Shown: positions 48,431-64,000 of the stretch, one piece after another | Layout: every line of letters begins with the position of its first letter | How positions within the stretch are numbered: the stretch's first letter is position 1 | Virus record (IMG/VR): IMGVR_UViG_3300023179_008562 | Location: 1-64,000 of that record | Length of the DNA: 64,000 bases | Reading direction: 5' to 3' (one strand) | From: a virus | Notes under the pieces: generated by a model | The model's input: the letters and a program-made list of their open reading frames with translations, nothing else | What the model was told of the DNA's origin: nothing | The model's database searches: none | Made by a program: the position numbers and the translations under genes

Positions 48431-48459
48431 ATAAAAGCACTGCTAGTCAGTGCTTTTAT
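48431..48459 (+). terminator. Strong intrinsic terminator closing the structural block
   Basis: ATAAAAGCACTG (48431-48442) and CAGTGCTTTTAT (48448-48459) form a perfect 12-bp stem with a 5-nt loop CTAGT, followed by TTTG. The A-run and T-run on the two sides make it usable on both strands. It separates the virion genes from the modification island. Confidence 0.85.
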
Positions 48460-48492
48460 TTTGACACCACACTTTCGTAGATAATTACAAGT

Positions 48493-48810
48493 ATGACCAC
48501 CACCACTGAAAATATTATCAATCAGGTTAAACAAGCCACCGATTTTCAAATCAACAAACGTGCATTGCAGGAACGAATTAAAATTGACCTGCACCTGGCC
48601 CACAATGGTGGGCTATTTTTAGTTGATCAAACTTTGCTGGCCTTTTTGTCCACCTGGCCCACAGATGAATTGTTTATTGAGGATGTCTATGGCAATCCCA
48701 TCTGTTGTGACCGATCAGAACTTTTGGCTCAGGCCCGGGAGTGTTATCAGACTGCAATGAATTCCTGGCATATTCAACATGAAGAACTGCGACGTGTTAG
48801 AAAAATCTAA
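48493..48810 (+). CDS. Conserved small phage protein
   Basis: A 105-aa protein. ALQERIKIDLHLAHNGGLF, TDELFIEDVYGNPICC and MNSWHIQHEELRRVRKI are familiar to me from uncharacterised proteins of aquatic T4-like phages. It is helical and charged, with two adjacent cysteines. It is the first gene after the terminator and its end overlaps the next gene by 32 nt, so it is coupled to the glycosyltransferase-like genes. No function can be assigned. Confidence 0.65.
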   Translation: MTTTTENIINQVKQATDFQINKRALQERIKIDLHLAHNGGLFLVDQTLLAFLSTWPTDELFIEDVYGNPICCDRSELLAQARECYQTAMNSWHIQHEELRRVRKI

Positions 48811-49555
48811 AGGCGTATTGATCTTTGCCAACAACACTGGTTATATAGATTACACCACAATTGCCGCCAGAGCCCAAACCCTTGCAGAACATTATCTTAA
48901 ACTGCCAGTGACCATTGTCACGGGTCAGGATTTTGCCAATAAAAGATATAATATTGACTCGGGGAATTTTGAAGCGTGGCACAATGGTGGCAGATATCTG
49001 GCCTATGAGTTGAGCCCCTACGATCAGACTATTCTGATAGACAGCGATTACTTTGTTTTTGATGACAATCTACTGAAAATTTTAGACGTGGTAAATGATT
49101 ATCAGATCACAAAAACAAATAATTATGTCTGCAGTCAACACAGCAATCAGATGGGACAATATAGCCTGGACACACTCTGGGCAACCGTGATTGTGTTTAA
49201 TAAAACTCCCAAGACCCGAATGTTATTTGATCTGGTGGGCGTAATTGAGCGCAATTATCAATATTACAGAGACCTCTACAACATCGAGGCCAGAAATTTC
49301 AGAAATGATTATGCATTTACCATTGCCGACAATATCATAAATGGATATTGTCCCAATCAGGAAAACTATTTACCCTGGCCTATTGTCAGCGTGCCTGGGC
49401 CCATTGATAGTCTGGAATTAAAAGATTTCAAGTTTTACCTGAAAACCTCAGGTCAGGCCCTGGTATTACCAAAGCAAAGTATTCATCTGATGAGCAAGGC
49501 CTGGTTATTATCTGATTCCTGCAAGCAATTAATCGAGGCAGCGACTAATGCGTGA
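48779..49555 (+). CDS. Glycosyltransferase-like protein 1 (GT-A-type features)
   Basis: A 258-aa protein. GVLIFANNTGYIDYTTIAAR at the N-terminus, QTILIDSDYFVFDDNLLKI in the middle (Asp-Ser-Asp as a DxD-like metal site) and LDTLWATVIVFNKTPKTRM suggest a GT-A-type glycosyltransferase fold. I recognise the family from T4-like phages of aquatic hosts, where its acceptor is unknown. The first ATG (48779) lies inside the previous gene; a GTG at 48794 is an alternative start. The gene overlaps the next by 8 nt. Confidence 0.6.
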   Translation: MKNCDVLEKSKGVLIFANNTGYIDYTTIAARAQTLAEHYLKLPVTIVTGQDFANKRYNIDSGNFEAWHNGGRYLAYELSPYDQTILIDSDYFVFDDNLLKILDVVNDYQITKTNNYVCSQHSNQMGQYSLDTLWATVIVFNKTPKTRMLFDLVGVIERNYQYYRDLYNIEARNFRNDYAFTIADNIINGYCPNQENYLPWPIVSVPGPIDSLELKDFKFYLKTSGQALVLPKQSIHLMSKAWLLSDSCKQLIEAATNA

Positions 49556-50366
49556 ATTTAAAAGTCAATTTGGGTTCTTGACCATTGCACAAAATAACGA
49601 CAACACTGATTATCTGGAGTTGGCGTATCAGCAAGCACTGAACGTCAAGGCAACACAAAAACAAAATCAATTTGCGGTACTGGTGGATGCTGACACTGCC
49701 AAATTCATCACTGATCAGCATCGTGAGATTTTTGATTATATTATTGAATTCTCGACTGACCATGCTAAAAATGAACACTGGAAGATGAGCAATGAATGGC
49801 AGGTATTCCATCTGACCCCTTTCAAAGAAACCATTAAACTTGAAAGTGATTTGTTATTCACGCGGGACATCACACATTGGTTAGACGGGCTAAGACTCAG
49901 AGACATCTGCTTTAGTTTGCACTGTAAAAATCTCCAGTCTGAGAATATTACATCGAGTCCCTACAGAAAGATTTTTAAAGAAAACGACTTGCCGGACATC
50001 TACACTGGCATGTATTATTTTAGATACAGTCAGACGAGTGCGGACTTTTTTAGAACGGTGCGTGATGTTTATGCTGGTTGGGATACAGTAAAAAATCATC
50101 TGGCGTTGATCAATGAACCGCCCACTACAGACCTTGCATTTGCAGTGGCGGTAAAAATCGTCGGGTCTGATATCTGCACCATTCCTACCCAGGATTTTTT
50201 TAACTTTGTTCATCTAAAACCACAAATTCAGGGCTGGAATGAAACTCAAGCAGTGACTGATCATACAAATATTGAATGGCAGAACGATATAGTAAGAATC
50301 AACAATCGCAATCAGTATTACCCAGTACATTATTACGAGAAGGGGTTTGTTCATGCTACCAGGTGA
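49548..50366 (+). CDS. Glycosyltransferase-like protein 2
   Basis: A 272-aa protein with YLELAYQQALNVKATQ, ETIKLESDLLFTRDITHWLD (an acidic E-S-D core that could be the metal site) and DIYTGMYYFRYSQTSADFFR. The layout (an N-terminal nucleotide-binding half, a mid acidic motif and a C-terminal acceptor half) parallels glycosyltransferase-like protein 1. Its role is inferred from this layout and its neighbours. It overlaps genes on both sides. Confidence 0.5.
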   Translation: MREFKSQFGFLTIAQNNDNTDYLELAYQQALNVKATQKQNQFAVLVDADTAKFITDQHREIFDYIIEFSTDHAKNEHWKMSNEWQVFHLTPFKETIKLESDLLFTRDITHWLDGLRLRDICFSLHCKNLQSENITSSPYRKIFKENDLPDIYTGMYYFRYSQTSADFFRTVRDVYAGWDTVKNHLALINEPPTTDLAFAVAVKIVGSDICTIPTQDFFNFVHLKPQIQGWNETQAVTDHTNIEWQNDIVRINNRNQYYPVHYYEKGFVHATR

Positions 50367-50709
50367 GTCTGAATTTTTGCAGGCATTGTCGTCGGCTATA
50401 TCAGCGACACCGGCGGTTGAAGAATACCGTGCATATTATGACGCGGATGGCTGGGTCACAGGATTTTCGGGCAGTGGATTTCCTGACAATGACAATTGGA
50501 TAAACATCAGCAGAGAAATGTATGTGACACATGATTGGAGTTGCATGCGAGTAGTTGATGGAAAAATTTGTCGAGTCGAACCTGTATATTTTCATCATTT
50601 TGCTTTGACTCGCAGCAACAAGGGTGTTAAAGTAGTAAAAGATCATGCTGGAATTGTTGTAGAAGATGACTATTTAGAGACGGAATATTATGAGCGTAGA
50701 AATCGTTGA
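50353..50709 (+). CDS. Unknown small protein between glycosyltransferase-like genes
   Basis: A 118-aa protein from the ATG at 50353 (MLPGESEFLQALSSAI), which has AAGGGG eight nt upstream; a TTG two codons earlier is also in frame. The sequence includes YDADGWVTGFSGSGFPDNDN and THDWSCMRVVDGKICRVEPV with two cysteines. I do not recognise it. It is embedded in the overlapping operon (14 nt with the gene before, 20 nt with the gene after), so it probably belongs to the same pathway. Confidence 0.6.
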   Translation: MLPGESEFLQALSSAISATPAVEEYRAYYDADGWVTGFSGSGFPDNDNWINISREMYVTHDWSCMRVVDGKICRVEPVYFHHFALTRSNKGVKVVKDHAGIVVEDDYLETEYYERRNR

Positions 50710-51586
50710 TGTTGCAGATTTAGATTGTATTTTTCTCACCTATGACGAGCCAAAAAAAGAAGAATTCTGGATTAAAATTCAGAACATGGTGCCCTGGGCC
50801 CGACGTGTAGATGGAGTCAAAGGGTCGGATGCAGCACACAAAGCCGCTGCTGACGCCAGCGATACTGACCGCTTCGTGCTGATTGACGGTGACAATTTAC
50901 CAGATCCAGAATTTTTTAATCTGCAGTTGAAGCTGGATACAACCAATCGGGACTGTGTGTTTCGCTGGAAAGCCAGAAACATCATTAATGGCCTGCAATA
51001 TGGTAATGGTGGCATGAGCTGCTGGACCAAGGACTTTGTCCGCAACATGAAGACTCATGAAGCCAGTGACGGTTTAGCAGCCAACGATGTGGAATTCTGC
51101 TTCTACCCCAACTATTGGTCCATGAACGATTGTTACAGTGCAACCTATCCCAATGCCACACCTTTCCAGGCCTGGCGAGCTGGGTTCCGCGAGGGTGTCA
51201 AAATGTGTCTGGATCGTGGCGCCCGACCCAATATTGAACAATTCAAAGACCGTATTGTCAGTAGAAATTATGACAATCTCTGCATCTGGCAGACGGTGGG
51301 GGCAGATGTGGAAAATGGCTTCTGGGCCATCTATGGTGCCAGACTGGGCACACAACTAACCATGCTGCAGGACTGGGATTACCGGCAGGTACAGTGGTTT
51401 GATGCATTGTCTGAACTGTGGCAAAATTACAAAGATCACGAGCCTGATCATTGCACTGCTGTGGGCGATGAACTACGTCAGAGATTGGGGTTGAAAATTG
51501 TCGACATGGATCCCGACGCCAGTGCATTTTTCAAGCATCATTACCGGAGCAATTTTCAGAACAAAGGACCAATGATTCGTGAGTAA
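50690..51586 (+). CDS. Glycosyltransferase-like protein 3
   Basis: A 298-aa protein. DLDCIFLTYDEPKKEEFW, WARRVDGVKGSDAAHKAAA, then RFVLIDGDNLPDPEFF with an Asp-Gly-Asp metal-binding motif; GNGGMSCWTKDFVRNMKTHE probably forms the acceptor side. This arrangement is that of family-2-like GT-A glycosyltransferases, and near relatives occur in aquatic T4-like phages. It is the third such gene in a row and leads directly into the radical SAM genes, overlapping the next by 8 nt. Confidence 0.65.
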   Translation: MSVEIVDVADLDCIFLTYDEPKKEEFWIKIQNMVPWARRVDGVKGSDAAHKAAADASDTDRFVLIDGDNLPDPEFFNLQLKLDTTNRDCVFRWKARNIINGLQYGNGGMSCWTKDFVRNMKTHEASDGLAANDVEFCFYPNYWSMNDCYSATYPNATPFQAWRAGFREGVKMCLDRGARPNIEQFKDRIVSRNYDNLCIWQTVGADVENGFWAIYGARLGTQLTMLQDWDYRQVQWFDALSELWQNYKDHEPDHCTAVGDELRQRLGLKIVDMDPDASAFFKHHYRSNFQNKGPMIRE

Positions 51587-52970
51587 GAGCAAGTTCATGG
51601 GTACTGCTGAGGAAATGCGTGAAAAATTAGGTCATGCACTGTGCCTGGCCAAATGGCAGCAGGTTAGTTTACATTTGCCCACTGGGTTAACCAATAGTTG
51701 CTATCATCCTCCCTTGCATGAAATTGATGCTGCACCACTGACGTTTAATCCCGGTGCACTGCACAATACTGCACACAAGAAAGCGCAACGTAAGTTGATG
51801 CTAGAGCAGCAACGTCCGTCGGAGTGTGCCTATTGCTGGTCAGCTGAAGACAACGGCCAACTTAGTGACAGGCATTATCGCAGTGGCGAACCTTGGGCAG
51901 CAGAACACTATGAAGAAATAGCCCATGGCTCTTGGGATCAGGATGCCACACCCAGTTATGTGGAAGTTAACTTTAGTCATGGCTGCAACCTAGCTTGTAG
52001 TTATTGTAGCCCACAGTTCAGTACCGAGTGGGGCAAAGAAATTGATCGCTGGGGGGCCTATCCCACCACCACACCGCACAATGACCCCATACACTTTCAG
52101 GGACGCCGCAAACCCATTCCGGTTCGTGAAGAAAATCCCTATGTGGACGCCTTCTGGCGCTGGTGGCCAGAATTGTATCCCCACCTCAAGCATTTTCGCA
52201 TGACTGGTGGTGAGCCACTCATGGACAAAAACACTCACCGAGTGTTTGATTACATCCTGGCCCTGCCCAAAAGCGATTTGCATGTGGACGTCACCAGCAA
52301 TTTTAGTGTGGATGATGCACTGTTTGAAAAATACATGCACAAGGTTGAGCAACTGTGTCAGGGCACAAAAATTGAACACTTCATGCAGTATGTGAGTTTG
52401 GATTCGGGTATTAAAGAGCAGAGTGAGTACATACGCGGTGGGCTCAATCTAGACAAGTGTCTGCATAATACTGAAGAATTTCTAACCAGAGTGCCCTATC
52501 GTAACAGTCTGACTTATATCATTACCATGAGCAACCTCAATATTCTAGGTCTGCGAAAGTTATTGGAAATCATTCTGGAACAACGTAAAAAACACAGTCT
52601 GACTTATCAGCGTGTCTGGTTTGATACTCCCCTGCTGCGACAGCCCACCTGGCAGAGTCTGCAAATTTTGCCAGCTAGTTATGTTAGAATATTAGAAGAT
52701 GTTGCTGATTGGATGGAGTCCCATCAACTACCCGAAGGTGTTGATAGATTTGATGGATTCAAAGATTATGAAGTTCAACGCATGCGCAGAAATATTGCCT
52801 GGATGAAAAATGGGCGGGATCTAGATCCTGAATATATACAACAACAACGTGCAGATTTTTATAGATTTTTTAACGAATACGACAAGCGTCGAGGATTTAG
52901 TTTTATTAGCAGCTTCCCCACAATGAAGGAATTCTGGCAAGAGTGCCGATATTATGCCGAAAATACATAA
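51579..52970 (+). CDS. Radical SAM protein, N-terminal Cys module, subfamily A (1)
   Basis: A 463-aa enzyme starting at GTG (51579) with AAAGGA upstream. The SAM site is CNLACSYC (Cys136, 140, 143), followed by MTGGEPLM. An N-terminal Cys module (Cys22, Cys41, Cys83, Cys86; SCYHPPLHE, LHNTAHKKAQRKLM and ECAYCW) looks like the auxiliary-cluster half of a SPASM or twitch domain placed before the barrel. The protein aligns end to end with the next gene, so the two are tandem paralogues. I recognise such proteins as twitch-type radical SAM enzymes of aquatic phages, with no known substrate. Confidence 0.85.
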   Translation: MSKSKFMGTAEEMREKLGHALCLAKWQQVSLHLPTGLTNSCYHPPLHEIDAAPLTFNPGALHNTAHKKAQRKLMLEQQRPSECAYCWSAEDNGQLSDRHYRSGEPWAAEHYEEIAHGSWDQDATPSYVEVNFSHGCNLACSYCSPQFSTEWGKEIDRWGAYPTTTPHNDPIHFQGRRKPIPVREENPYVDAFWRWWPELYPHLKHFRMTGGEPLMDKNTHRVFDYILALPKSDLHVDVTSNFSVDDALFEKYMHKVEQLCQGTKIEHFMQYVSLDSGIKEQSEYIRGGLNLDKCLHNTEEFLTRVPYRNSLTYIITMSNLNILGLRKLLEIILEQRKKHSLTYQRVWFDTPLLRQPTWQSLQILPASYVRILEDVADWMESHQLPEGVDRFDGFKDYEVQRMRRNIAWMKNGRDLDPEYIQQQRADFYRFFNEYDKRRGFSFISSFPTMKEFWQECRYYAENT

Positions 52971-54306
52971 CGAAACAGATTTAGAATATAGACGTAGAGT
53001 AATCGACATCAAGTCTGAAAGTTTCTGTGCCGCCAAATGGTACAATGCCACTATCTGGCTGGGGTCGGGTATGACCACTAGTTGTCATCACCCATTACCA
53101 CATAAAGTTTCAGTCCAAGAGGTAGAGGCCAACCCCAGAGCTCTGCATAATACGCCACGCAAAAAGCAAGAACGTCATCAGATGCAACAGGGAGAAAGAC
53201 CTACCGGCTGTGAGTATTGCTGGAAAATTGAAGACATGGGCGTGGATGCCATAAGCGATAGAGTATATAAAACTGTAATTTATAAAGACGAGGACCTGGA
53301 TCTTGCATACAACACTGATTGGAATTCGGACATTAATCTTAAAACTTTGGAAATCGCATTTGATAGAACTTGCCAGTTGGCCTGCAGCTATTGTAATCCT
53401 GCTTTCAGCACTAGCTGGGTACGCGATATTCACCGAAATGGAGCATACATCAATCTGGTCAGCGATGGTCGTAACCATTTCACTCATGAGCATGATAGTG
53501 CTCAACTTTATAAACTCGGTGAAACTAATCCGTATGTGGAAGCATTCTTCAAATGGTGGGAAACCGACCTCCACCAGACCCTGACTGAACTCAGAATCAC
53601 CGGCGGTGAACCGCTCATGAGCGGGTATACAAAACGTCTGTTGGATTGGTTCAAGAATAATCGTGGAGCTAGTACGACCAGACTGGCCATTAATAGCAAC
53701 CTGTGCTTTGACCAATCAGTGCTGGAAGAATTACTAGACAGTACCCAAGGCATCGAACTTGATCTGTATACCAGCAATGAAAGTCTGGGCGCTCATGCAG
53801 AATACATTCGCGATGGGCTTGAATGGCAGCAGTGGACGGATAACATGTGGTTCTTGATGCGCAGCGGTCGGTTGCGTAGCTTGCATGTCATGTGCACAAT
53901 TAATGCTCTTTGCCTGGAAAGTTTGCCAGAATTTCTAACCATGCTCATGGAATGGAAAAGTCAATGGGGTCGAAATAACCCCAACTTTACATTAAACATT
54001 CTGCGTTTTCCCAGTTTTCAGAGTCCATTGGTGCTGCCTGATGATATTCGTATGAAACATCGACAGAGACTGGTGGATTGGTTAAATAGATTTAATGATC
54101 ATTGCATGCTTCATGAGCATGAAAAGAATCATGTGCAACGTCTGATTGATTATTTGGATATTGTTAAAACTCCACACAGTGATGCGTTTGACTTGCCAGC
54201 ATTACATAACGATTTCAAACAGTTTCATCAACAATATGATCAGCGTCGTGACAAGGATTTTAAAACAACATTCCCACAACTGGCCGATTGGTACACAACA
54301 CTATGA
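52954..54306 (+). CDS. Radical SAM protein, N-terminal Cys module, subfamily A (2)
   Basis: A 450-aa enzyme paralogous to the preceding one. SAM site CQLACSYC (Cys140, 144, 147), ITGGEPLMSGY, and an N-terminal Cys module with Cys25, Cys44, Cys86 and Cys89 (TSCHHPLPHK, LHNTPRKKQERHQM, GCEYCW). The two share the HHP/LHNT/KK/R..M pattern that sets subfamily A apart from the three later genes. It overlaps the gene before by 17 nt and the next by 4 nt. Confidence 0.85.
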   Translation: MPKIHNETDLEYRRRVIDIKSESFCAAKWYNATIWLGSGMTTSCHHPLPHKVSVQEVEANPRALHNTPRKKQERHQMQQGERPTGCEYCWKIEDMGVDAISDRVYKTVIYKDEDLDLAYNTDWNSDINLKTLEIAFDRTCQLACSYCNPAFSTSWVRDIHRNGAYINLVSDGRNHFTHEHDSAQLYKLGETNPYVEAFFKWWETDLHQTLTELRITGGEPLMSGYTKRLLDWFKNNRGASTTRLAINSNLCFDQSVLEELLDSTQGIELDLYTSNESLGAHAEYIRDGLEWQQWTDNMWFLMRSGRLRSLHVMCTINALCLESLPEFLTMLMEWKSQWGRNNPNFTLNILRFPSFQSPLVLPDDIRMKHRQRLVDWLNRFNDHCMLHEHEKNHVQRLIDYLDIVKTPHSDAFDLPALHNDFKQFHQQYDQRRDKDFKTTFPQLADWYTTL

Positions 54307-55646
54307 GCGATTCAAACGATATTAAAAGTTTTTATAATAAAGGCTACAGTTACACGGCCAGAGCACCATATTTTGCTGATCTGGAAAGTTTAACAGAGAG
54401 ACAAAAAGAATTGCTTTTGGAGAGCAAGACATTTTGTATGTTGCCCTGGGTGCACATGCATGCATTTCCTGATGGAAGAGTTTATCCTTGTTGTTTGGCA
54501 GACTACTGGCATCCCCTGGGGGATTTACGTAAAGACGACATGGTGACTGTGTGGAATCAAGATGCCTATAAACAGTTGCGTCAAAACATGCTGACTGAGA
54601 AGCCTAGTAAGGAATGCAACAAATGCTATGAACAAGAGAAAAGTGGATTTTTCAGCATGCGGTATGATGCCAACAGAAATTATGGTCATCATATTGCAGA
54701 AGTAGAACAGACTCTTGAAGATGGTGAGCATCCAGAATTCAATATTAGATACTGGGATGTGAGATTCAGTAATCTCTGCAATTTCCGTTGCAGAACCTGT
54801 GGGCCTATCTTTAGCAGTAATTGGTATAGTGATCACATTAAACTTTATAATAGAAACCCAGATGTTTTGGGTAGGGAAATGACCACAGTGGAGTACGCTG
54901 GCCGCCATGAGATGGATATCTGGGAGCAAATGCAACCACACATCCCGCATTTGGAACAAGTTTATTTTGCTGGTGGCGAACCTTTGATCATGAAAGAGCA
55001 TTACCTGTTACTGGAAAAATTGATCGAGTTGGGCAAGACTGATGTCAGACTCATGTACAATACCAATTTTAGTGAGCTCAGATATAAAAATAAACATGTG
55101 TTTGAGTACTGGAAGCATTTTAAAACTGTTAACGTTGGTGCTAGTCTGGATGCCAGTGGTTCCCGCGCAGAAATCCTACGTAAAGGCACTGATTGGCAGC
55201 AAACGGTGGAGAATCGCGAGCGTATGATGCGTGAAGTCCCACACGCTGATTTTTATATCAGCGCAACTGTTAGTGCCGCTAATGTGTTGCATGTATTGGA
55301 TTTTCACCGTGAATGGACTGAGTTGGGCCTAATAAAAGCTAAAGATTTTAATGTTAACATTTGTCAGAGTCCTGAATGGCACAGAATTGATGTATTACCA
55401 GAACAATTTAAACGAGAAGTGGTTGAGCCAGCATATCGTAAACATCTGGAATGGTTGCGCCCGCAGGACGATTTAAAACGAGCTACAAATGGTTTTGAAA
55501 GTGCCATCAACTTTATGATGGCCAAGGACAACAGCCAACACTGGAATAAGTTTGTTGCGGAGACCGCCAAACTTGATCGAGTCAGAAATGAAGATTTCTG
55601 GCAAGTATTTACTGAATTGAGCTCTTTACCACATGACATTACCTAA
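54303..55646 (+). CDS. Radical SAM protein, N-terminal Cys module, subfamily B (1)
   Basis: A 447-aa enzyme from the ATG at 54303, which overlaps the previous stop (ATGA); an ATG 15 nt upstream is also in frame. N-terminal module: FCMLPWVHMHAFPDGRVYPC with Cys45, Cys63 and Cys64, then ECNKC (Cys105, 108). SAM site CNFRCRTC (Cys159, 163, 166), then FAGGEPLI. The N-terminal FC..PW...PDG.V.PCC pattern is the core of a SPASM domain, normally found after the barrel. Confidence 0.85.
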   Translation: MSDSNDIKSFYNKGYSYTARAPYFADLESLTERQKELLLESKTFCMLPWVHMHAFPDGRVYPCCLADYWHPLGDLRKDDMVTVWNQDAYKQLRQNMLTEKPSKECNKCYEQEKSGFFSMRYDANRNYGHHIAEVEQTLEDGEHPEFNIRYWDVRFSNLCNFRCRTCGPIFSSNWYSDHIKLYNRNPDVLGREMTTVEYAGRHEMDIWEQMQPHIPHLEQVYFAGGEPLIMKEHYLLLEKLIELGKTDVRLMYNTNFSELRYKNKHVFEYWKHFKTVNVGASLDASGSRAEILRKGTDWQQTVENRERMMREVPHADFYISATVSAANVLHVLDFHREWTELGLIKAKDFNVNICQSPEWHRIDVLPEQFKREVVEPAYRKHLEWLRPQDDLKRATNGFESAINFMMAKDNSQHWNKFVAETAKLDRVRNEDFWQVFTELSSLPHDIT

Positions 55647-56832
55647 TAGCATTTGCATATTGCCCTGGATTAGTGTTGAGACCAGCCCTGTTGGAACAGT
55701 GCGACCCTGTTGTTTAGCCAAAGATGAAATAACCAAACCATCGGGCGAAAAATACTTGCTTAAAGAGCATAATCTGGAAGAGATTTATCAGAGCAAGTAC
55801 ATGCAACGTCTCAGACAGGAATTTTTATCAGGAAATAAACCCCCCACTTGCGATCGTTGCTGGGAAGAGGAAGCTGCAGGTCGAACCAGCAAAAGAATCA
55901 ACAGTCGAGTTCGTCTTAAGGAGTATTATGATCAAGTGGATTGGCACAACGTCAATCCTGACCAATTGTGGTTCATTGATCTTAAATTGGGCAATATTTG
56001 CAATCTCAAATGTCGTATTTGCGGCAGCTGGAGCAGCAGCAAGTGGGTCCAGGAAGAAATTGATTATGTGCCAGGTCTTGTCAACAGAAAAGAACATCTG
56101 GCTTATAAGTTTTTGCAGCAGGGCGCTTGGCCCAGAGAAAGTCCTGATTTCTGGGAAAATTTAAAAAGTCTGTTGCCCAACATCAAATATTTTGAGTTTA
56201 CGGGCGGAGAACCTTTTCTAATTCAACAACATTTTGATTTGTTGGAGTATGCTGCAGAACATGGCCACAGTCAGCATATTGATATTCATTACAATACCAA
56301 TGGCACTGTGTTTCCCGACGCTGCTGAATTATGGAACAAGTTCAATCGTGTGGAAATTGCTTTCAGCATAGACAACGTTGGCGAGAGATTCGAGCTGGAA
56401 CGTTATGGTGCTGACTGGTCAGAAGTACAGGAAAATTTAAATAAATTTTCGGCCATGCGCAGCAAGAAAATCACCACGCAACTCTGCACCACCATGAATG
56501 CTCAGAATGTCTATTATTTGCCAGAAATTTGTGATTGGGCCAGTACTCAAGATTTTGACTACATATATTTCAATATGCTGCATGATCCCTGGCACATGAA
56601 TATTGGTCGTATGACTCCTGCAGCACAACAGTTGGTGATTGAACGATTAACCAATCACAAGTTTCACACCAAATATCGTGCAGAGATTGAACGTATTATT
56701 CAGTTTATTCGTAATGGGTCTGGCAGTGATGGTCAGAAATTTCTAACAACAATGAAATTGGCCGACCAATACAGAAAACAAAGTTTTGCTGAAACGCATC
56801 CTGAAATTGCCAAGGCCATGGGGTATGATTGA
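55633..56832 (+). CDS. Radical SAM protein, N-terminal Cys module, subfamily B (2)
   Basis: A 399-aa enzyme. N-terminal module ICILPWISVETSPVGTVRPC with Cys8, Cys26 and Cys27, then TCDRCW (Cys73, 76); SAM site CNLKCRIC (Cys123, 127, 130); FTGGEPFL. It has almost no sequence before the first cysteine, so the auxiliary-cluster module begins at the N-terminus. It overlaps both neighbours. Confidence 0.85.
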   Translation: MTLPNSICILPWISVETSPVGTVRPCCLAKDEITKPSGEKYLLKEHNLEEIYQSKYMQRLRQEFLSGNKPPTCDRCWEEEAAGRTSKRINSRVRLKEYYDQVDWHNVNPDQLWFIDLKLGNICNLKCRICGSWSSSKWVQEEIDYVPGLVNRKEHLAYKFLQQGAWPRESPDFWENLKSLLPNIKYFEFTGGEPFLIQQHFDLLEYAAEHGHSQHIDIHYNTNGTVFPDAAELWNKFNRVEIAFSIDNVGERFELERYGADWSEVQENLNKFSAMRSKKITTQLCTTMNAQNVYYLPEICDWASTQDFDYIYFNMLHDPWHMNIGRMTPAAQQLVIERLTNHKFHTKYRAEIERIIQFIRNGSGSDGQKFLTTMKLADQYRKQSFAETHPEIAKAMGYD

Positions 56833-57919
56833 TTATTTACCGACTGATGTTTGCGGGCCCTGGAAAGATGTTAACTCAAACAACATCTTTCAAACGGTGT
56901 ATCAACAATTTAAATTGTTACAATGGGGGCAGATTTATTTTGTTTTAAATGTGCAAGACATTACAAGAATTTCCATACCTAAAAATTATAAAAATATATT
57001 AATTAGTTTTCATACTGAATTTTATCATTATGACAAGTTGATACATTTTTTTAATTTACATGCTGACTGTGACTTTTTGTTAATTTGTGATGGTGATGCC
57101 AATGAAAATATATGGCCAGATCATGTAACATATTGTCCCTGGGTCACCTGGCACCAACAATTATCAATGGTTGTTGATCGGTACGGATACAATCAGGAAA
57201 AACGATCCCCAACAAAACGACTGAGTGCATTAAGTCGGCGCAATGATTTTAATCGCGCAGCAATTATTGCATATCTAATGAATGAATATGATCTAACAGA
57301 CTGTATTGTTAGTTGGCATAATATAGACTATGGAATTTCACCCTGGTATTTTGATGCATCTGCCGGTGTGCCTGACAGAATCTGGCGATATCTAAGTAGT
57401 GAAAAATTTAGCCAACTCACCAATCTTTTTGCTGACGGCCCACTTGTGTTGCCCAACTTGCCAATCACCAATGGTGATTGGAGAAAATCTGCGTATTTGG
57501 ATGCAATTTTAAATCTTACCAATGAAGGGGTTTATGGAACAATGTTCAATCAGGATAAATGTTATACTACTCCTTATTTAACAGAAAAAACTTGGAAACC
57601 TCTGATTGCCAGACAACCCTTTTTGCCAATAGGGCAGTTTAATACACTGACGCATCTTTCTAAATTGGGTATGAATTTTGACTATGGATTCAATTTGGAT
57701 TTTGATCAGTGCAAACATGATTTTGATCGAATGATCAAAATATATGAGTTGCTTGAACATATTAAAAATATGGATTTTAATTCTTTGTTGAATGATTCCC
57801 AACCGTCAGCTGATCATAATTTAGAAATTATTATTAACGGCGAATTTTCAAAAAAATGTCAGGAACATAATAATGAAAATTTTGATTTGGTTGACAACTG
57901 GGTCTCAAGACACAGATGA
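56825..57919 (+). CDS. TEKTWKP-family protein, possible glycosyltransferase
   Basis: A 364-aa protein from the ATG at 56825, which overlaps the previous stop by 8 nt; an ATG at 56786 would add 13 residues inside the upstream gene. YLTEKTWKPLIARQPFLPIG near residues 245-270 is a C-terminal signature of a family I know from aquatic phages and bacteria; a GT-B-type transferase is a reasonable but unproven guess. The gene at 14277-15452 carries a related C-terminal segment. It lies between radical SAM genes and is AT-rich compared with them. Confidence 0.5.
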   Translation: MIDYLPTDVCGPWKDVNSNNIFQTVYQQFKLLQWGQIYFVLNVQDITRISIPKNYKNILISFHTEFYHYDKLIHFFNLHADCDFLLICDGDANENIWPDHVTYCPWVTWHQQLSMVVDRYGYNQEKRSPTKRLSALSRRNDFNRAAIIAYLMNEYDLTDCIVSWHNIDYGISPWYFDASAGVPDRIWRYLSSEKFSQLTNLFADGPLVLPNLPITNGDWRKSAYLDAILNLTNEGVYGTMFNQDKCYTTPYLTEKTWKPLIARQPFLPIGQFNTLTHLSKLGMNFDYGFNLDFDQCKHDFDRMIKIYELLEHIKNMDFNSLLNDSQPSADHNLEIIINGEFSKKCQEHNNENFDLVDNWVSRHR

Positions 57920-59238
57920 AATTAGAGAAATCAGAAATTGCTTTTCACAAAAAGCCACCAACACTTTGTATGGCCCCCTGGGCACACACCTATCTGAGTC
58001 CGCAGACTGAGAGAAGAATGTGCTGTGCTAGTCGTGAGCCGGCACAAAACTTTCAACAGTATATTGATACTCGGGCCGGCACAGGCAAGTACATTCCCAT
58101 CACACTAGAGCAGCATTGGAATAGCGAGCACATGAAGTCGGTGCGCCGGCGTATGATGGCAGGAGAAACATTGCCTGAGTGCGAAGTCTGCAATAATAAG
58201 CTACTAAATACCGACGTATACCGCAGCTATTTTAATCAGTTGTTCGGACATAAGTACAATAGCATATGGGAAACCACAGATGAATCGGGGTATACTACCA
58301 TGCAACCTGTCAGCTGGGATTATCGTTTCAGTAATCTCTGCAACTTCAAATGCCGTACGTGCGGCGACATGTTGAGCAGTGCCTGGGAAACCGAACAACG
58401 GCAGCACAACATGATCAACTGGCATGACTCCAAGAATAATTGGCAGCGTCCAGAAATAAAAAAACAAATCGAATATTTTCAAGAAACACAGATTGAACAA
58501 GAGTTCGCTCAAGCAGTCGAGAACCATCAAGTTGAGGAGGTATATTGGGTAGGCGGTGAGCCTCTGATGTACGAACAGCACTGGCGTTATATGCGGCGCA
58601 TTGTTGAACTGGGAGATGGTAAAAATGTTTACGCTAGATACAACACAAACCTTAGTCGCATCAATTATCGCGGCATCAATCTCTATAGCGATATTTTGGC
58701 TGGGCTACGCGACTGGCAAATATGTGCAAGCATCGATGGTACGGGCCGAGTTGGAGAGTATATACGAACAGGTCTCGATTATGCAACGTGGCTTGAAAAC
58801 TTTAAGGCTGGTGTTCGAGTCGCTACGCATCGTCGTCAGATGAGAATTGATTTCACACTTACCCTGCCGGGTATGTTTGAAATAGCGAATATTCAAAAGT
58901 TAGCAGATGAACTGGGGGTGGATATCCTGGCCAAAGTGGTGTTTAGCTTCGGTCCGGATATCCTGCTTTCACCTCTGGCTTTACCTCGAGACATATTACA
59001 TACTTGGATAGATGAATTGCTACCAGAGACTCAGGGAGCATTGCGGGATATATTGGTACAACTCAAAACTCGACCCACCTTCGCCGAGCAATGGCCCAAC
59101 GAGTATACTGCGGGATTATGCGAAGGTAAAGCCAGAATTTTAAAATTGGAATCTATTCGCAAGGATACATATACATTAGCAGATATTCTTAGTCAGAGGC
59201 CCCAAGTTCATGAGTGGTACAAATCCATCGACAGTTAA
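57916..59238 (+). CDS. Radical SAM protein, N-terminal Cys module, subfamily B (3)
   Basis: A 440-aa enzyme. N-terminal module LCMAPWAHTYLSPQTERRMC with Cys18, Cys36 and Cys37, then ECEVC (Cys89, 92); SAM site CNFKCRTC (Cys142, 146, 149); WVGGEPLMYEQ. The segment SWDYRFSNLCNFKCRTCG closely matches YWDVRFSNLCNFRCRTCG in the product of 54303-55646, so these two are the closest pair. Starts with an ATGA overlap and overlaps the next gene by 29 nt. Confidence 0.85.
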   Translation: MKLEKSEIAFHKKPPTLCMAPWAHTYLSPQTERRMCCASREPAQNFQQYIDTRAGTGKYIPITLEQHWNSEHMKSVRRRMMAGETLPECEVCNNKLLNTDVYRSYFNQLFGHKYNSIWETTDESGYTTMQPVSWDYRFSNLCNFKCRTCGDMLSSAWETEQRQHNMINWHDSKNNWQRPEIKKQIEYFQETQIEQEFAQAVENHQVEEVYWVGGEPLMYEQHWRYMRRIVELGDGKNVYARYNTNLSRINYRGINLYSDILAGLRDWQICASIDGTGRVGEYIRTGLDYATWLENFKAGVRVATHRRQMRIDFTLTLPGMFEIANIQKLADELGVDILAKVVFSFGPDILLSPLALPRDILHTWIDELLPETQGALRDILVQLKTRPTFAEQWPNEYTAGLCEGKARILKLESIRKDTYTLADILSQRPQVHEWYKSIDS

Positions 59239-60361
59239 AGTCACTTTAAGAAATCCCGTCAATAAGTCAGAGACCTGGGATTACTGGATCATTCCAGACC
59301 ACCATCAACTGGCCCAGGATTGGGTAGTTGCACTTAGAGAATTGTTAAAGTCTGGCAGACCATTGGAAAAAAATTATTGTTTTATGGGATTTCCAGACAC
59401 TGCTAGAAATTTAGAATATTTGTGTAACGAGCTCAATCGACACATTAAAACCATCAATCTTTTTAATCGAACAAAGGTCTGGCAAAATGCAGGGTTAGAA
59501 TCATATGTCATTGAGGATTACTTTACTCCTGATGTTGTGAGATTTGGTAGTGACTATTCCGTTGGCTGGGACGATGAAAACCTGGGGCTCAGTGTCAAAC
59601 ACGAAGTAATGAACCGTCTGCATAATCATTTTGAAGTATTGCAGGGAGTTGCCTGGGACCTCAGCAGCTATTATAAATTAGCGGATTATGATACCAAATA
59701 CGCCATCAGGCAATTAAACAATATTTGTCATGAAATTGAAACTCTGATTCTGAGTCAGCGTAAACGGGCAGTTTTACCAGACTGGGTGCGCCCCAGTCAG
59801 ATTACCACATTCCTGCAAGCCCAACGATATGAATTAACGCCCGAGCACAGACAGTTATTTTTGACCAATGGTTATGATCGAGAATTTGGTAGAGTCTACA
59901 TGCATTGGACACAGATTGGAAAAACTCTGTTTGAAGTCTTTCGTGACGAACATGCTCCCAGACTGACTGACACAATTTGTGAAGCCATCACTGAGCTCAA
60001 ATACTACAGTGGCGAATTTGACATTGAGTGGGGCAATAATGTCACCTATGGTCGGGGATTCAAATGGCACGATCAGGAACAGGATCAGTTCCGCCAATGG
60101 TTGATAGATAACGGTCGTGACCCTGGGGATACCAATCTGAGTCTGGGATATTTGCCTATTGGGCAAGTTGATCTAATTAAAAGTTTTAATACCCAAAACC
60201 CGATTAAAATCAGAGAAATTTTGGGGAAGTATTTGGACATATATCAGATACAAATTGACGATGTCATTGGGGTCTATGATAATTGTTGGTCGGATGATGA
60301 CCACCAACAGCAGCAAATTAATGCAATGATGGCTGGTTATGATTTTAGTAGCCGGGGGTGA
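59210..60361 (+). CDS. Unknown protein in the modification operon
   Basis: A 383-aa protein I do not recognise by function. TWDYWIIPDHHQLAQDWVVA, CFMGFPDTARNLEYLCNELN and YMHWTQIGKTLFEVFRDEHA are its clearest blocks; it is rich in aromatic residues and His. It has no membrane segment, signal peptide or cysteine cluster. It overlaps the radical SAM gene before it by 29 nt and the SGNH gene after it by 23 nt. Proteins like it accompany such operons in aquatic phages as far as I recall. Confidence 0.6.
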   Translation: MSGTNPSTVKVTLRNPVNKSETWDYWIIPDHHQLAQDWVVALRELLKSGRPLEKNYCFMGFPDTARNLEYLCNELNRHIKTINLFNRTKVWQNAGLESYVIEDYFTPDVVRFGSDYSVGWDDENLGLSVKHEVMNRLHNHFEVLQGVAWDLSSYYKLADYDTKYAIRQLNNICHEIETLILSQRKRAVLPDWVRPSQITTFLQAQRYELTPEHRQLFLTNGYDREFGRVYMHWTQIGKTLFEVFRDEHAPRLTDTICEAITELKYYSGEFDIEWGNNVTYGRGFKWHDQEQDQFRQWLIDNGRDPGDTNLSLGYLPIGQVDLIKSFNTQNPIKIREILGKYLDIYQIQIDDVIGVYDNCWSDDDHQQQQINAMMAGYDFSSRG

Positions 60362-61160
60362 CAGCCTAATTTTTGGGTCGGAGTTATCTGATCAGATTAA
60401 TCAAACACCTAGTGAAAAGACGTTTTCTGCTCAACTAGCTAGACTTGCTGGTCTGGAATATGTATCAACTGCCTTTCCTGGTAATGCTAACTCGGCTATT
60501 TCCAGAACAACTCTAAGAAAATGTCAGGACCTACAACGTCAGGGAAAGAAATTTGCTGTACTAATAATGTGGAGTTTTGTTTCCAGATTTGAATTTAGAT
60601 TTAATTATCAGACACATCAACGAAATAGTCCCTGGTATAGCATAAATCCCTGGACCATTGAATCAGACTTAAAGAAAATTTCTGACAATTATTTTACTCC
60701 CAATTCTGATATTGAACAACGACAACTCAACAATATATTAACTGCCAGAACCACTGGAGTCGCAGATTTTGCATCAGTATTTTACAAACATGTAGGCAAC
60801 AGTGAATATTATGAAATGTATTCCAGTTTTAGAGAATTTATTTTCATGCAAGATTATCTAAAATTAAATGGGATCCCCTATATTTTCCTGACAGCTGGTA
60901 ATACATTTTATCAACATGAAAATTATATTAGGAGTCAGGATCACTGGCTATCTGATTTATATCAACTGATTGACTGGGACCAATGGTTTTTCTTTCCTGC
61001 AACATCGGTCAGTTTGACCCAGGAACCCAAAGGATTTTTTCACTGGGCGACAGAAAATAAATACCCAATGGGCACTACACACCCGCTCGAGGCAGCACAC
61101 GATGATGCTGCTAATTTGATTAGGGAAAAATTCAATGAATTGGTTACGAAAAATTTATGA
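60339..61160 (+). CDS. SGNH-type hydrolase-like protein
   Basis: A 273-aa protein. AGGDSLIFGSEL is the nucleophile block (GDS, Ser9), AFPGNANSAIS supplies the Gly/Asn block and GTTHPLEAAHDDAA the terminal HP...H block in which a catalytic His is expected. Such enzymes usually remove acetyl or other acyl groups, or act as acyltransferases on sugars. It overlaps the unknown gene before it, and a 33-aa ORF starts inside its end. Confidence 0.65.
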   Translation: MILVAGGDSLIFGSELSDQINQTPSEKTFSAQLARLAGLEYVSTAFPGNANSAISRTTLRKCQDLQRQGKKFAVLIMWSFVSRFEFRFNYQTHQRNSPWYSINPWTIESDLKKISDNYFTPNSDIEQRQLNNILTARTTGVADFASVFYKHVGNSEYYEMYSSFREFIFMQDYLKLNGIPYIFLTAGNTFYQHENYIRSQDHWLSDLYQLIDWDQWFFFPATSVSLTQEPKGFFHWATENKYPMGTTHPLEAAHDDAANLIREKFNELVTKNL

Positions 61161-61236
61161 TCGTATTGTTTTAGAAATTACCTACCGTAAGAGACTCCGA
61201 GAGTTGCGTAAACGTGATCCATTCATCTACAAATGA
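61135..61236 (+). CDS. 33-aa basic peptide
   Basis: ATG at 61135 and TGA at 61234-61236 overlap the SGNH gene before it by 26 nt and the next by 4 nt (ATGA). The peptide starts MNWLRKIYDRIVLEITYRKR and ends RKRDPFIYK; it is an amphipathic basic helix. The exact fit into the overlap pattern of the operon supports it as a real gene. I recall short phage proteins ending in KRDPFIY, with no known role. Confidence 0.6.
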   Translation: MNWLRKIYDRIVLEITYRKRLRELRKRDPFIYK

Positions 61237-61784
61237 TATTGGTCAACGGCTGTAGTTTTACATCGGGCGAAGAATCTCCCATTGCTTGGCCTCGCCTGCT
61301 AGATTTCGATGTAGTCAACATTGCGACTGCTGGTGCCAGCAATGATTATATTTTAAGAAGTACGGTGGATTTTGTGGATAACCATCGAGTGGACAGGGTC
61401 ATTATTGCCTGGACCAGCCCCCATAGAATAGAAATTTCAAATAAACATTTGACTTCAGGTAGTTTTAGAAAATACGGAAAAATTGTTGAAGAAGTTTTCA
61501 AAGATTGGGATGAACAATGGGCATACTTAAAATTTTTAACGCAGATTAAATTACTTGATAACTATCTTAAGGACATACCACATGTCTTTGTCAGTGCATT
61601 TGATATACAGAAATATGCTTCTGGTGTTGGGTTAGATTGTTATTTGGGCTGGCCCAAGCAAGGTTTGGTGGAGTGGATGGGAGATTGTAGTTTGGGCCCT
61701 GGCGGGCACCCATTGGAAGTTGGACATCAATTAATAGCAGATCGAATCAATGAACATATTAGGAATCTCGGCTGGATTTCATGA
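61233..61784 (+). CDS. SGNH-type hydrolase-like protein (short)
   Basis: A 183-aa protein with VNGCSFTSGEES (GCS in place of GDS; Ser8 as likely nucleophile), NIATAGASNDYILR (Gly/Asn block) and LGPGGHPLEVGHQLIADRIN near the C-terminus, which carries the expected His. It is about the minimal size of this fold. The last 35 nt overlap the carbamoyltransferase gene. Confidence 0.65.
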   Translation: MILVNGCSFTSGEESPIAWPRLLDFDVVNIATAGASNDYILRSTVDFVDNHRVDRVIIAWTSPHRIEISNKHLTSGSFRKYGKIVEEVFKDWDEQWAYLKFLTQIKLLDNYLKDIPHVFVSAFDIQKYASGVGLDCYLGWPKQGLVEWMGDCSLGPGGHPLEVGHQLIADRINEHIRNLGWIS

Positions 61785-63222
61785 CGCAGGTGCTACAGTA
61801 GTTGATGGTAGCACCGGTGACATCCTATTTGCGGCACACAGTGAAAGATACAGCAAGCAAAAAAACGATGCCGACCTCTGTCAGGGCATAGCAGAAGCTG
61901 CGTTGGCACATGGGCCCATTGGCACAATTGCCTATTATGAAACTCCCTGGCTGAAGCAACTGCGACAGCTATACAGCGGTCAGGGCATCGAATGGGATAA
62001 ACTAAATACCAAAAAAATCATAACAGACCAGTTGGGATTCAAAATCTCAGTCCCTGTCAGGACTTATCAGCATCATCTGAGTCATGCCGCTGCGGGATTT
62101 CAGACCAGCCCATTCGATCGGGCCACCGTGGTGGTGATTGATGCCATCGGTGAATGGGACACCATAACCATCTGGGCCGCAGAATACGTCAATGGTCAGG
62201 CCCAATATAACAAACTCTGGGGTCAGAAATATCCACACAGTCTGGGGCTGTTTTATTCAGCCATGACTCAACGTGCAGGGTTGCGGCCATTGGATGAAGA
62301 ATACATTCTCATGGGTATGGCAGCTTATGGCACTGCTGATCCTAGCATGCTAGCGGATTTCGTTCAGAATTTGGACACTCTGGAGTTTCGACGGAATCTC
62401 CATGCGGGTGCTGATGATTATCGTCCAGACATGAGTGATTTTGATATCGCGGCCAGTGCCCAGCAGACTCTGGAAACTTGTCTGGCCAGTGTGATGACAC
62501 GAGCCAGGGCATTCGGCTGGAGCACGAATTTGGTCTATATGGGTGGAGTCGCTTTAAATTGTTCAGCAAACGCCAGACTGGGACAATATTTCGACGACAT
62601 CTGGATCATGCCCAACCCTGGTGATTGCGGCAGCAGTCTGGGGGCCGCGGCTCTGGCTTATAGTGGTCGAATAAACTGGCAACATCCCTATCTGGGCACA
62701 GAAATTCCAGGACCATATCCTCTGGCTGGTCTGATGAATGAACTACTGACTCGTCAGATTGTGGGGGTGGCCAGTGGTCGAGCAGAGTTTGGTCCCAGGG
62801 CCCTGGGCAACCGTAGTCTGTTAGCAGATCCACGGGGTCCTGAAATTAAAGACCGAGTTAACGAAATCAAACGCAGACAAAAGTTCAGACCATTTGCCCC
62901 GGTGATTTTACAAGAGCACGCCAACGACTATTTTGAAATGCCAGTGGGCTTTGCCACCAGCCCATATATGCAGGTCATAGCCAAATGTCGGCATCCTGAA
63001 CAATTTCCTGCTATAATACATGTGGACGGCACCAGTCGAGTGCAGACCGTGTCTGAAAATTGTGGTAGCGGCATCAGACAATTGTTGGAATCCTGGTATG
63101 CACAGACTGGCTGTCCCATGTTGTTGAACACCAGTCTGAACATACGCGGAGAACCCATGGTCAACAATCGTGCAGATGCCGACAGGTTTGAACAGTTGTA
63201 TAATGTAAAGGTCATGTCATGA
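61750..63222 (+). CDS. NodU/CmcH-type O-carbamoyltransferase
   Basis: A 490-aa enzyme of the family that moves a carbamoyl group from carbamoyl phosphate through a carbamoyl-adenylate onto a sugar or antibiotic hydroxyl. N-terminal Kae1-like part: GISAGFHDAGATVV, HHLSHAAAGFQTSPF (metal-binding His pair), VVVIDAIGEWDT, GMAAYG and GGVALNCSANARLGQ. C-terminal YrdC-like part: GRAEFGPRALGNRSLLADPR, KFRPFAPVI and NTSLNIRGEPMVN. Length is close to NodU. Its presence points to a carbamoylated end product. It overlaps genes on both sides. Confidence 0.92.
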   Translation: MNILGISAGFHDAGATVVDGSTGDILFAAHSERYSKQKNDADLCQGIAEAALAHGPIGTIAYYETPWLKQLRQLYSGQGIEWDKLNTKKIITDQLGFKISVPVRTYQHHLSHAAAGFQTSPFDRATVVVIDAIGEWDTITIWAAEYVNGQAQYNKLWGQKYPHSLGLFYSAMTQRAGLRPLDEEYILMGMAAYGTADPSMLADFVQNLDTLEFRRNLHAGADDYRPDMSDFDIAASAQQTLETCLASVMTRARAFGWSTNLVYMGGVALNCSANARLGQYFDDIWIMPNPGDCGSSLGAAALAYSGRINWQHPYLGTEIPGPYPLAGLMNELLTRQIVGVASGRAEFGPRALGNRSLLADPRGPEIKDRVNEIKRRQKFRPFAPVILQEHANDYFEMPVGFATSPYMQVIAKCRHPEQFPAIIHVDGTSRVQTVSENCGSGIRQLLESWYAQTGCPMLLNTSLNIRGEPMVNNRADADRFEQLYNVKVMS

Positions 63223-63590
63223 AGAATCTTATTGTTGTTGGTGATAGTTTTTGTGCTAGCCGAAATGTAAACAATGATAACTTAAATCACCCCCCCTGCT
63301 GGCCAAATCTTTTGGCCCAGGAGTTAAAATTAAATTTATTGGGTGAAGGCATTGGTGGTGCTGGATGGTGGTCCACAAGACAATCGTTAAGAAAATTAAC
63401 ACCAGAACAGATCAATAACACTGAATGCATGGTTTTTTGTCATTCAGATGCCAATCGTTTATTAAATCACAACCTAAATCAAAATCATCTAGATAAACAT
63501 GATCCAAATCCTGCTAATGAAGAACATTTAGCAGTAAAGTTATACTACAAATATATTTTAGATATGGAATTTGCAAACTGGGCTCAATAG
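63219..63590 (+). CDS. SGNH-type protein, first half (ends at in-frame TAG)
   Basis: A 123-codon frame. NLIVVGDSFCASRN is the GDS nucleophile block (Ser10), GEGIGGAGWWSTRQS the Gly block and FCHSDANRLLN a typical third block. It ends at TAG (63588-63590), followed directly by ATG in the same frame, and the sequence then continues as 63591-63953. It is too short alone for this family (usually above 180 aa). Either the gene was broken by an amber mutation (one change from CAG), or the two halves are made separately or by readthrough. Confidence 0.6.
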   Translation: MKNLIVVGDSFCASRNVNNDNLNHPPCWPNLLAQELKLNLLGEGIGGAGWWSTRQSLRKLTPEQINNTECMVFCHSDANRLLNHNLNQNHLDKHDPNPANEEHLAVKLYYKYILDMEFANWAQ

Positions 63591-63953
63591 ATGTGGCTTA
63601 GGGAAATTTCAGACATATATGGGCATTTAAAATTGATTCACTTGCATTGTTTTCCTTGGTCAGTAGAAAAATTAACAATTTCTCCCACTGAGGTTTCTGT
63701 TTCACCTGCACTTGCATCAGTATCTCTTAACGAATTTGAACTTGGGTTATTTGACAGCAAAAATACAATTGTTGAGAAATTAAGGCACGACACGAGGCAT
63801 AATCATCTGAGTGAATTTAATAATATTGAATTGGCCAGACAATTGGCTGAGATTATAAGAAATTACTCAGTAAAAAATTCAAGCCTTGATGTTGGTAAAT
63901 TTCAAACCAAATCTATTAAGTGGTTTGACATTGACTTTTGGGACATTAAATAA
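63591..63953 (+). CDS. SGNH-type protein, second half
   Basis: 120 codons in the same frame as the preceding half, opening with ATG immediately after TAG (MWLREISDIYGHLKLIHLHC). The part near RHDTRHNHLSEFNNIELARQ would supply the C-terminal His-containing block that the first half lacks, so the two together make a plausible full SGNH protein of about 244 aa. Restart at the ATG after termination could produce it as a separate chain. Its TAA overlaps the kinase start. Confidence 0.6.
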   Translation: MWLREISDIYGHLKLIHLHCFPWSVEKLTISPTEVSVSPALASVSLNEFELGLFDSKNTIVEKLRHDTRHNHLSEFNNIELARQLAEIIRNYSVKNSSLDVGKFQTKSIKWFDIDFWDIK

Positions 63954-64000
63954 TGAAGAAGATATTAATCATGGGGTTGCCGGGCAGTGGCAAAACCACT
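63953..64000 (+). CDS. P-loop kinase (5' end only)
   Basis: The first 16 codons, MKKILIMGLPGSGKTT, show a complete Walker A motif. The ATG overlaps the preceding TAA by 1 nt. GLPGSGKTT is usual in small kinases such as adenylylsulfate, nucleotide or sugar kinases; in aquatic phages an adenylylsulfate-kinase-like gene often sits in such operons. The rest is outside the window, so the substrate cannot be given. Confidence 0.7.
   Translation, partial: MKKILIMGLPGSGKTT

Follow-up and report, generated by a model that had tools for sequence, protein, structure and literature searches.

What does a T4-like phage do with five different radical S-adenosylmethionine (SAM) enzymes encoded in one run with glycosyltransferase-type proteins, directly behind its tail fibre genes? 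The question is raised by IMG/VR virus record IMGVR_UViG_3300023179_008562, of which bases 1-64000 (the window) were analysed out of 90,677, and in which a cassette of same-strand genes starts just past the fibre gene fibC. The answer most likely lies in a previously undescribed route, the cassette being shared by hundreds of giant phages of the T4 type that live in water and are uncultured. A real and fixed pathway is encoded, linked to the fibre. Tentatively, and at a little short of an even chance, it is taken to be a virion-decoration pathway in which soluble enzymes would build an unusual glycan, most likely on FibC; acceptor, reactions, their order and their benefit are what we infer.

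A fixed gene set beside the fibre genes

The core of the cassette is g1, g2, g3, g5, the radical SAM genes r1 to r5, the gene for a conserved protein U383 and that for a large g5-like protein of 1142 amino acids. Pattern-confirmed relatives in IMG/VR number 274 for U383 and 153 for r1, and 95 loci keep r1-r2-r3-r4-r5-U383 in unbroken order. With r1 as anchor, and with contig ends allowed for in the counts, 60 of 62 loci have g1 and as many have fibC; g5 is found in 64 of 69, r2 in 61 of 64, r3 in 59 of 62 and r5 in 53 of 55. With U383 as anchor the 1142-residue family is present in 53/54, the carbamoyltransferase gene CT in 52/58, the SGNH-type gene S1 in 44/60 and a kinase gene in 37/58, and r5 lies at most 2.5 kb upstream of U383 in 74 of 74 loci; near-identical contigs occur among the loci of both anchors and the counts are not all independent. 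Because sampling through r1 or U383 could bias the result, loci were also gathered through fibC only, taking the top 80 out of at least 579 relatives (68 of the 80 non-redundant). Wherever a non-redundant fibC locus is followed by more than 5.3 kb of sequence, which holds for 56 of them, g1, g2, g3, g5 and r1 are present; the other loci end early. An earlier note, made from the letters of the window, had named genes carried singly and in unrelated places as the pattern that would speak against a common pathway; what is found instead is a syntenic set.

The proteins r1, U383, g5, FibC and a protein with a TEKTWKP motif had no tblastn match in the 50,697 phage records of INPHARED, and U383 had no relative in GTDB genomes. 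Contigs of marine metagenome-assembled genomes hold the same set with the positions of r5 and r4 exchanged, and in them U383 was undetected.

The note's one-strand operon of overlapping genes is borne out by the open reading frame list, which gives 19 same-strand frames (48493-63953) overlapping by 1-47 nt almost throughout, the sole gap being 72 nt at 61161-61232. The terminator that it had placed at 48431-48459 is likewise present as a hairpin in the sequence. The operon extends past the window, ending near position 68780 of the record, with an APS-kinase-like gene, genes for a 158-residue protein and a dCMP deaminase, and the gene for the 1142-residue protein, after which DegT aminotransferase and epimerase genes stand in convergent orientation. 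Upstream the order is a giant structural gene (4389 amino acids), w43746, fibB and fibC, and genes for the gp20 portal (PF07230), a prohead protease and gp46/47-like proteins mark the record as T4-like. FibB scores 27.4 bits against PF11962 (cut-off 25), and threonine and serine make up 26% of FibC and on average 28% of its orthologues.

A late-type promoter-like motif seems to mark the start of the cassette. The loose form NATAAWTA stands upstream of fibB in 45 of 58 relatives and of g1 in 20 of 55, and at internal genes mostly in 0-2%, with r1 and r3 at 5-8%. The exact 8-mer TATAAATA was rejected as a late promoter, being merely at chance level within the window; it is the looser motif across relatives that is informative. 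The position of the features is given in Table 1.

Table 1. Features of the cassette and of the fibre genes before it (window positions, or locus positions where a locus is named)
Feature	Position	Strand	Description
fibB	45969..47447	+	fibre protein; has a Peptidase_G2 domain (autocleaving chaperone); neighbours the cassette on its upstream side
fibC	47461..48402	+	threonine/serine-rich fibre protein, proposed acceptor
intrinsic terminator hairpin	48431..48459	+	separates fibC from g1; read directly
late-type promoter-like motif GATAATTA	48480..48487	+	13 nt upstream of g1
g1	48493..48810	+	105 amino acids, conserved; invariant G40, D64, Y66, P69, R103
g2	48779..49555	+	GT8-like glycosyltransferase, DSD motif; by homology to g3
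g3	49548..50366	+	GT8/glycogenin-type glycosyltransferase; by profile and predicted fold
g4	50347..50709	+	120 amino acids; 39 non-redundant relatives
g5	50690..51586	+	GT-A-like protein, invariant DGDN
r1	51579..52970	+	N-twitch radical SAM; NF033640 287 bits; own clade, support 100
r2	52954..54306	+	N-twitch radical SAM; NF033640 290 bits; own clade, support 100
r3	54288..55646	+	N-twitch radical SAM; NF033640 400 bits; own clade, support 99
r4	55633..56832	+	N-twitch radical SAM; NF033640 354 bits; own clade, support 99
TEKTWKP protein	56786..57919	+	variable accessory; full-length relatives in 7 loci
r5	57916..59238	+	N-twitch radical SAM; NF033640 289 bits; own clade, support 100
U383	59210..60361	+	conserved protein; confident predicted fold, AF2 pLDDT 86.6
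S1	60339..61160	+	SGNH-type (GDSL...HPLEAAH); DUF6071 25 bits, just under cut-off 27
S2	61233..61784	+	SGNH-type; DUF6071 30.6 bits, above cut-off
CT	61750..63222	+	NodU/TobZ-type O-carbamoyltransferase; PF16861 176.8 bits, PF02543 135.6 bits
S3	63219..63953	+	SGNH gene; in-frame TAG at 63588-63590 splits S3a (63219-63590) and S3b (63591-63953)
APS-kinase-like P-loop gene, start	63953..64000, continues L008:1953-2384	+	PF01583 44.8 bits
1142-residue protein	L008:3352-6780		tandem repeats like DFSWHPNPLDPPYIYVFGNQW; C-terminus g5-like

Five radical SAM enzymes

All five radical SAM proteins of the earlier note are confirmed, each lying well over the curated cut-off of 170 bits for NF033640 (N_Twi_rSAM). 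In a phylogeny of 84 radical SAM proteins their clades stand on long branches, and since each has a separate clade they are, as far as sequence comparison tells, five ancient and non-redundant enzymes. The iron-sulphur motifs of all five are intact, CxxxCxxC being kept in 451 of 451 orthologues and the N-terminal twitch cysteines in 439, and r3 and r4 are fused to one protein in 13 loci; the five orthologue clades and this fusion argue for five separate radical steps, where the note had suggested several in sequence. The twitch region of r3 and r4 has a PDB match, at E 2e-5, in the corresponding region of BtrN, a twitch radical SAM dehydrogenase of carbohydrate chemistry from the butirosin pathway, and the auxiliary-cluster domain is shared, but it is C-terminal in BtrN and N-terminal in the cassette proteins. 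At low scores r4 also resembles peptide maturases.

Relatives of r1-r5 occur in bacteria. A Bacteriovoracaceae chromosome has eight clustered N_Twi_rSAM genes, relatives of r1-r5, without fibre or glycosyltransferase genes (L175:6112-18108), and in the order of the Bacteriovoracaceae a relative of r5 sits between glmU and glmS (L334:7245-11830). In that order, too, an r2 relative adjoins a GT2 gene and a weakly PqqD-like protein that falls below the Pfam cut-off (L335:5424-7098). Such neighbours hint at both amino-sugar and peptide substrates; the neighbourhoods of single bacterial r3 relatives were mixed and were set aside as uninformative. In the cultured Vibrio phage K566, one run of otherwise unknown genes includes three radical SAM genes akin to r3 and r4 (L186:14977-19379).

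Glycosyltransferase-type proteins, U383 and accessories

Three glycosyltransferase-like proteins had been proposed, and the proposal is supported for g3, with its predicted GT8/glycogenin-type fold, and for its homologue g2; g5 is only weakly of this kind. The g3 profile matches glycogenin-1 (E 2e-4), and the GT8-type fold is predicted by an AlphaFold2 (AF2) model of mean confidence (pLDDT) 90.1 whose best Foldseek matches are glycogenin (E 1e-8), with 318 PDB chains at E<=0.001 and TM-scores of only about 0.4-0.5. Where the DxD metal motif is expected g3 has an invariant ExD (E99, D101). For g2 there were no direct matches in Pfam or the PDB, and its assignment comes through g3 (hhalign 99.3%, E 5e-20). 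Resemblance of g5 to GT2-type enzymes is weak (PF13641, 15.9 bits, below cut-off); homology links it to the C-terminal portion of the 1142-residue protein.

The model of U383 found no PDB fold match with Foldseek, and the PDB sequence-profile search was also empty. One locus joins U383 to an S1-like SGNH domain in a single protein (L076:9992-11623), which ties it to acyl-group enzymes. A relationship of U383 to the operon protein of 302 and 300 amino acids in the cultured phages Phosso and Atu_ph07 (see below) was rejected, hhalign and hmmsearch giving nothing significant, and a Foldseek match of U383 to a 300-residue Atu_ph07 protein could not be tied to the Atu_ph07 operon gene.

The carbamoyltransferase assignment of the note holds, with both Pfam domains of CT well over cut-off, a match to phrog_1601, and decarbamoylnovobiocin carbamoyltransferase, GdmN and TobZ as PDB relatives. 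SGNH and carbamoyltransferase genes are present as the note had it, but as variable accessories rather than as core. The two frames S3a and S3b are one SGNH gene: five relatives have a match, and in four of them (L057, L148, L016, L069) a single frame of 218-222 amino acids matches both halves, and the TAG within S3 is a nonsense change, a recoding site or an assembly error. The TEKTWKP protein had no match in Pfam, PHROG or INPHARED. Between core genes of relatives lie further radical SAM genes (some B12-binding) and genes for GDP-mannose dehydratase/epimerase, UDP-glucose dehydrogenase, aminotransferase, GHMP kinase and methyltransferase. The genes that vary from phage to phage are those for SGNH enzymes, carbamoyltransferase, kinase, sugar-nucleotide enzymes and methyltransferase, and such inserts fit a core that is fixed while the tailoring of its sugars varies.

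A second radical SAM system at the same site in cultured phages

Sinorhizobium phage Phosso and Agrobacterium phage Atu_ph07, both cultured, share the giant structural gene, a w43746 homologue and a fibB-like fibre, followed by genes for a cupin, a radical SAM/SPASM protein and a protein of about 300 residues ending CHxSCHASCHxSRSRR (L187:22626-30369 and L188:7363-14101; the Atu_ph07 protein is AUZ94952). Scanning IMG/VR with a DNA pattern turned up 40 loci (among L190-L243) whose proteins, variable in body and 126-320 amino acids long, end in CHxSCHxSCHxSRGRR or in a closely similar tail; in nearly all of these loci the same radical SAM gene lies immediately upstream. The tail follows the pattern CH[STA]SCH[STA]SCH[SGN]SR[GSA]RR or a close variant of it, is found also in loci L336 and L337, and the system recurs in the cultured SURPRISE13 and pPa_SNUABM_DT01. 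Two examples scanned against NCBIfam matched no family, and when relatives of the Phosso protein were sought by profile, only Atu_ph07 came up. Because an invariant C-terminal tail adjoins a peptide-maturase-like enzyme, the simplest reading of these sequences is that a virion-type protein would be modified; by analogy only, this strengthens the fibre reading for the cassette. As Atu_ph07 and Phosso are in culture, radical SAM modification of virion proteins by phages is testable now.

A candidate pathway and its alternatives

In the pathway as proposed, one late-type transcript starting at g1, just past the fibre genes, would encode soluble enzymes. The GT8-type pair g2 and g3 and the g5-type enzymes may add or lengthen sugars, on which, or on a carrier peptide, r1 to r5 could each perform a radical step of their own (oxidation, epimerisation or cross-linking), five in all. 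Variable acyl or carbamoyl groups would be supplied by the SGNH, carbamoyl and sugar-nucleotide enzymes that differ between phages. The acceptor would most likely be the adjacent FibC, rich in threonine and serine, and the benefit altered receptor binding or shielding of the fibre. The fixed, fibre-linked set seen in the fibC loci gives partial support to the unusual glycan or fibre decoration that the earlier note proposed, while its acceptor and chemistry stay conditional; the tail-fibre link is upheld by position, absolute linkage and late-type motifs, whereas the preference for fibre over host surface as acceptor is inferred. Bolder, and possible with the balance leaning against it, is that a fixed pathway of five radical SAM steps and glycosyltransferases puts a novel class of modified glycan or glycopeptide on the tail fibre, a virion post-translational modification of an entirely new kind, of which the CHxS system would be a second, independent form.

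Several points weigh against a fibre glycan. The case for g2 and g5 as glycosyltransferases is weak, no activity can be assigned to U383, and the cassette is known here only from genes of uncultured phages. The linkage to fibC may reflect shared ancestry of a late module and not a substrate. The PqqD-like neighbour of the r2 relative favours a peptide over a sugar, and an invariant core peptide is missing from FibC, whose WG-containing C-terminus is only moderately conserved and absent in some relatives, and PETTYLTNTWGTPTIA within it was rejected as an obligatory core peptide, being no better conserved than other FibC regions and having lost its W in several. No RiPP (ribosomally synthesised and post-translationally modified peptide) recognition domain was matched in the operon, and no Pfam match to PqqD.

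The best of the alternatives, although we think it unlikely, is remodelling of the host surface, in which lipopolysaccharide or capsule of the infected cell is altered to block superinfection or adsorption to debris. GT8, sugar-nucleotide and acyl- or carbamoyltransferase genes are typical of surface glycans, and the genomic region matches the described host-recognition cluster. However, the 22 proteins from g1 through the epimerase contain no membrane segment by hydropathy (the two fatty-acid desaturases of the same genome score positive), and flippase, polymerase and lipid-carrier enzyme are missing from the operon; this speaks against gtr-like conversion of the host O-antigen. The late-type motif and the absolute linkage to a fibre gene also count against it, and five invariant radical SAM genes far exceed known seroconversion loci.

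Somewhat more doubtful is a RiPP-like first step, with r1-r5 modifying side chains of the fibre or of g1 before sugars are added. The CHxS tails beside a radical SAM/SPASM gene, at the same site in cultured phages, lend it weight, as do the r2 relative with its PqqD-like neighbour and the resemblance of r4 to peptide maturases; yet no cysteine-rich or invariant core was found in the window proteins, the PqqD-like match is under the Pfam cut-off and the twitch match is to a carbohydrate enzyme. Improbable too is a product that has nothing to do with the virion, either a released small molecule or a modified nucleotide (a natural product made by the phage, or an anti-defence metabolite). All the enzymes are soluble by prediction, TobZ/GdmN-type carbamoyltransferases act on small molecules and the Bacteriovoracaceae cluster stands apart from fibre and glycosyltransferase genes, but the absolute fibC linkage and the location inside the structural module oppose it. 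DNA hypermodification is very improbable: phages can sugar-modify bases and the genome has QueE-like, QueD-like, thymidylate synthase and dCMP deaminase genes, but the cassette lies with late fibre genes distant from the replication genes, no base hydroxylase was found among the proteins scanned, and the glycosyltransferase match is to protein-glycosylating glycogenin-type folds.

Relation to known systems

Phage glycosyltransferases decorate virion proteins in mycobacteriophages, and we know of no radical SAM enzymes in that glycosylation. The gtr-type O-antigen seroconversion locus relies on a membrane flippase and a polytopic glycosyltransferase, which the cassette lacks. With NodU, TobZ and GdmN the accessory CT shares both domains of the O-carbamoyltransferases, but at 144.6 bits it falls far under the cut-off of 1000 for the NodU equivalog NF041651. 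All of r1-r5 belong to N_Twi_rSAM, and the description of that family does not include five orthologue groups kept together.

Close in setting is the host-recognition cluster of pelagimyophages and cyanomyophages, described as hypervariable and non-syntenic, with occasional radical SAM cassettes, whose glycosyltransferases in pelagimyophages were proposed to remodel the host surface (PMC7029224). Like it, the present cassette is T4-like and follows a giant structural gene and fibres with glycosyltransferase and radical SAM genes; unlike it, a fixed core in fixed order runs through hundreds of contigs and the accessories alone vary. The T4-like environmental genome TARA_ERS488813_N000010 has 12 radical SAM genes, reported as iron-sulphur metabolism (PMC5332604). 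It shares with the cassette many radical SAM genes, but its description holds no conserved set, glycosyltransferase partner or fibre link. In open-access papers neither a description of this fixed gene set nor a report of radical SAM virion modification was found.

If the fibre reading is true, a large lineage of jumbo phages that abound in fresh water and the sea remakes its receptor-binding fibre by radical chemistry not known from virions, and host range and receptor recognition would be read differently from fibre sequences. For N_Twi_rSAM, whose functions are unknown, five fixed orthologues are here paired with a candidate acceptor.

Other genes of the phage

A metK gene was considered as the SAM supply of the cassette and rejected: just 2 of 50 relatives carry it, and it is therefore unlinked to the cassette. 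In this phage the S-adenosylmethionine synthetase is encoded at L009:11431-12534, and the two desaturase-like genes are adjacent to one another (L009:2211-3813). Two more radical SAM genes lie on the minus strand of the window among replication genes, at 8895-9770 and 10397-11521.

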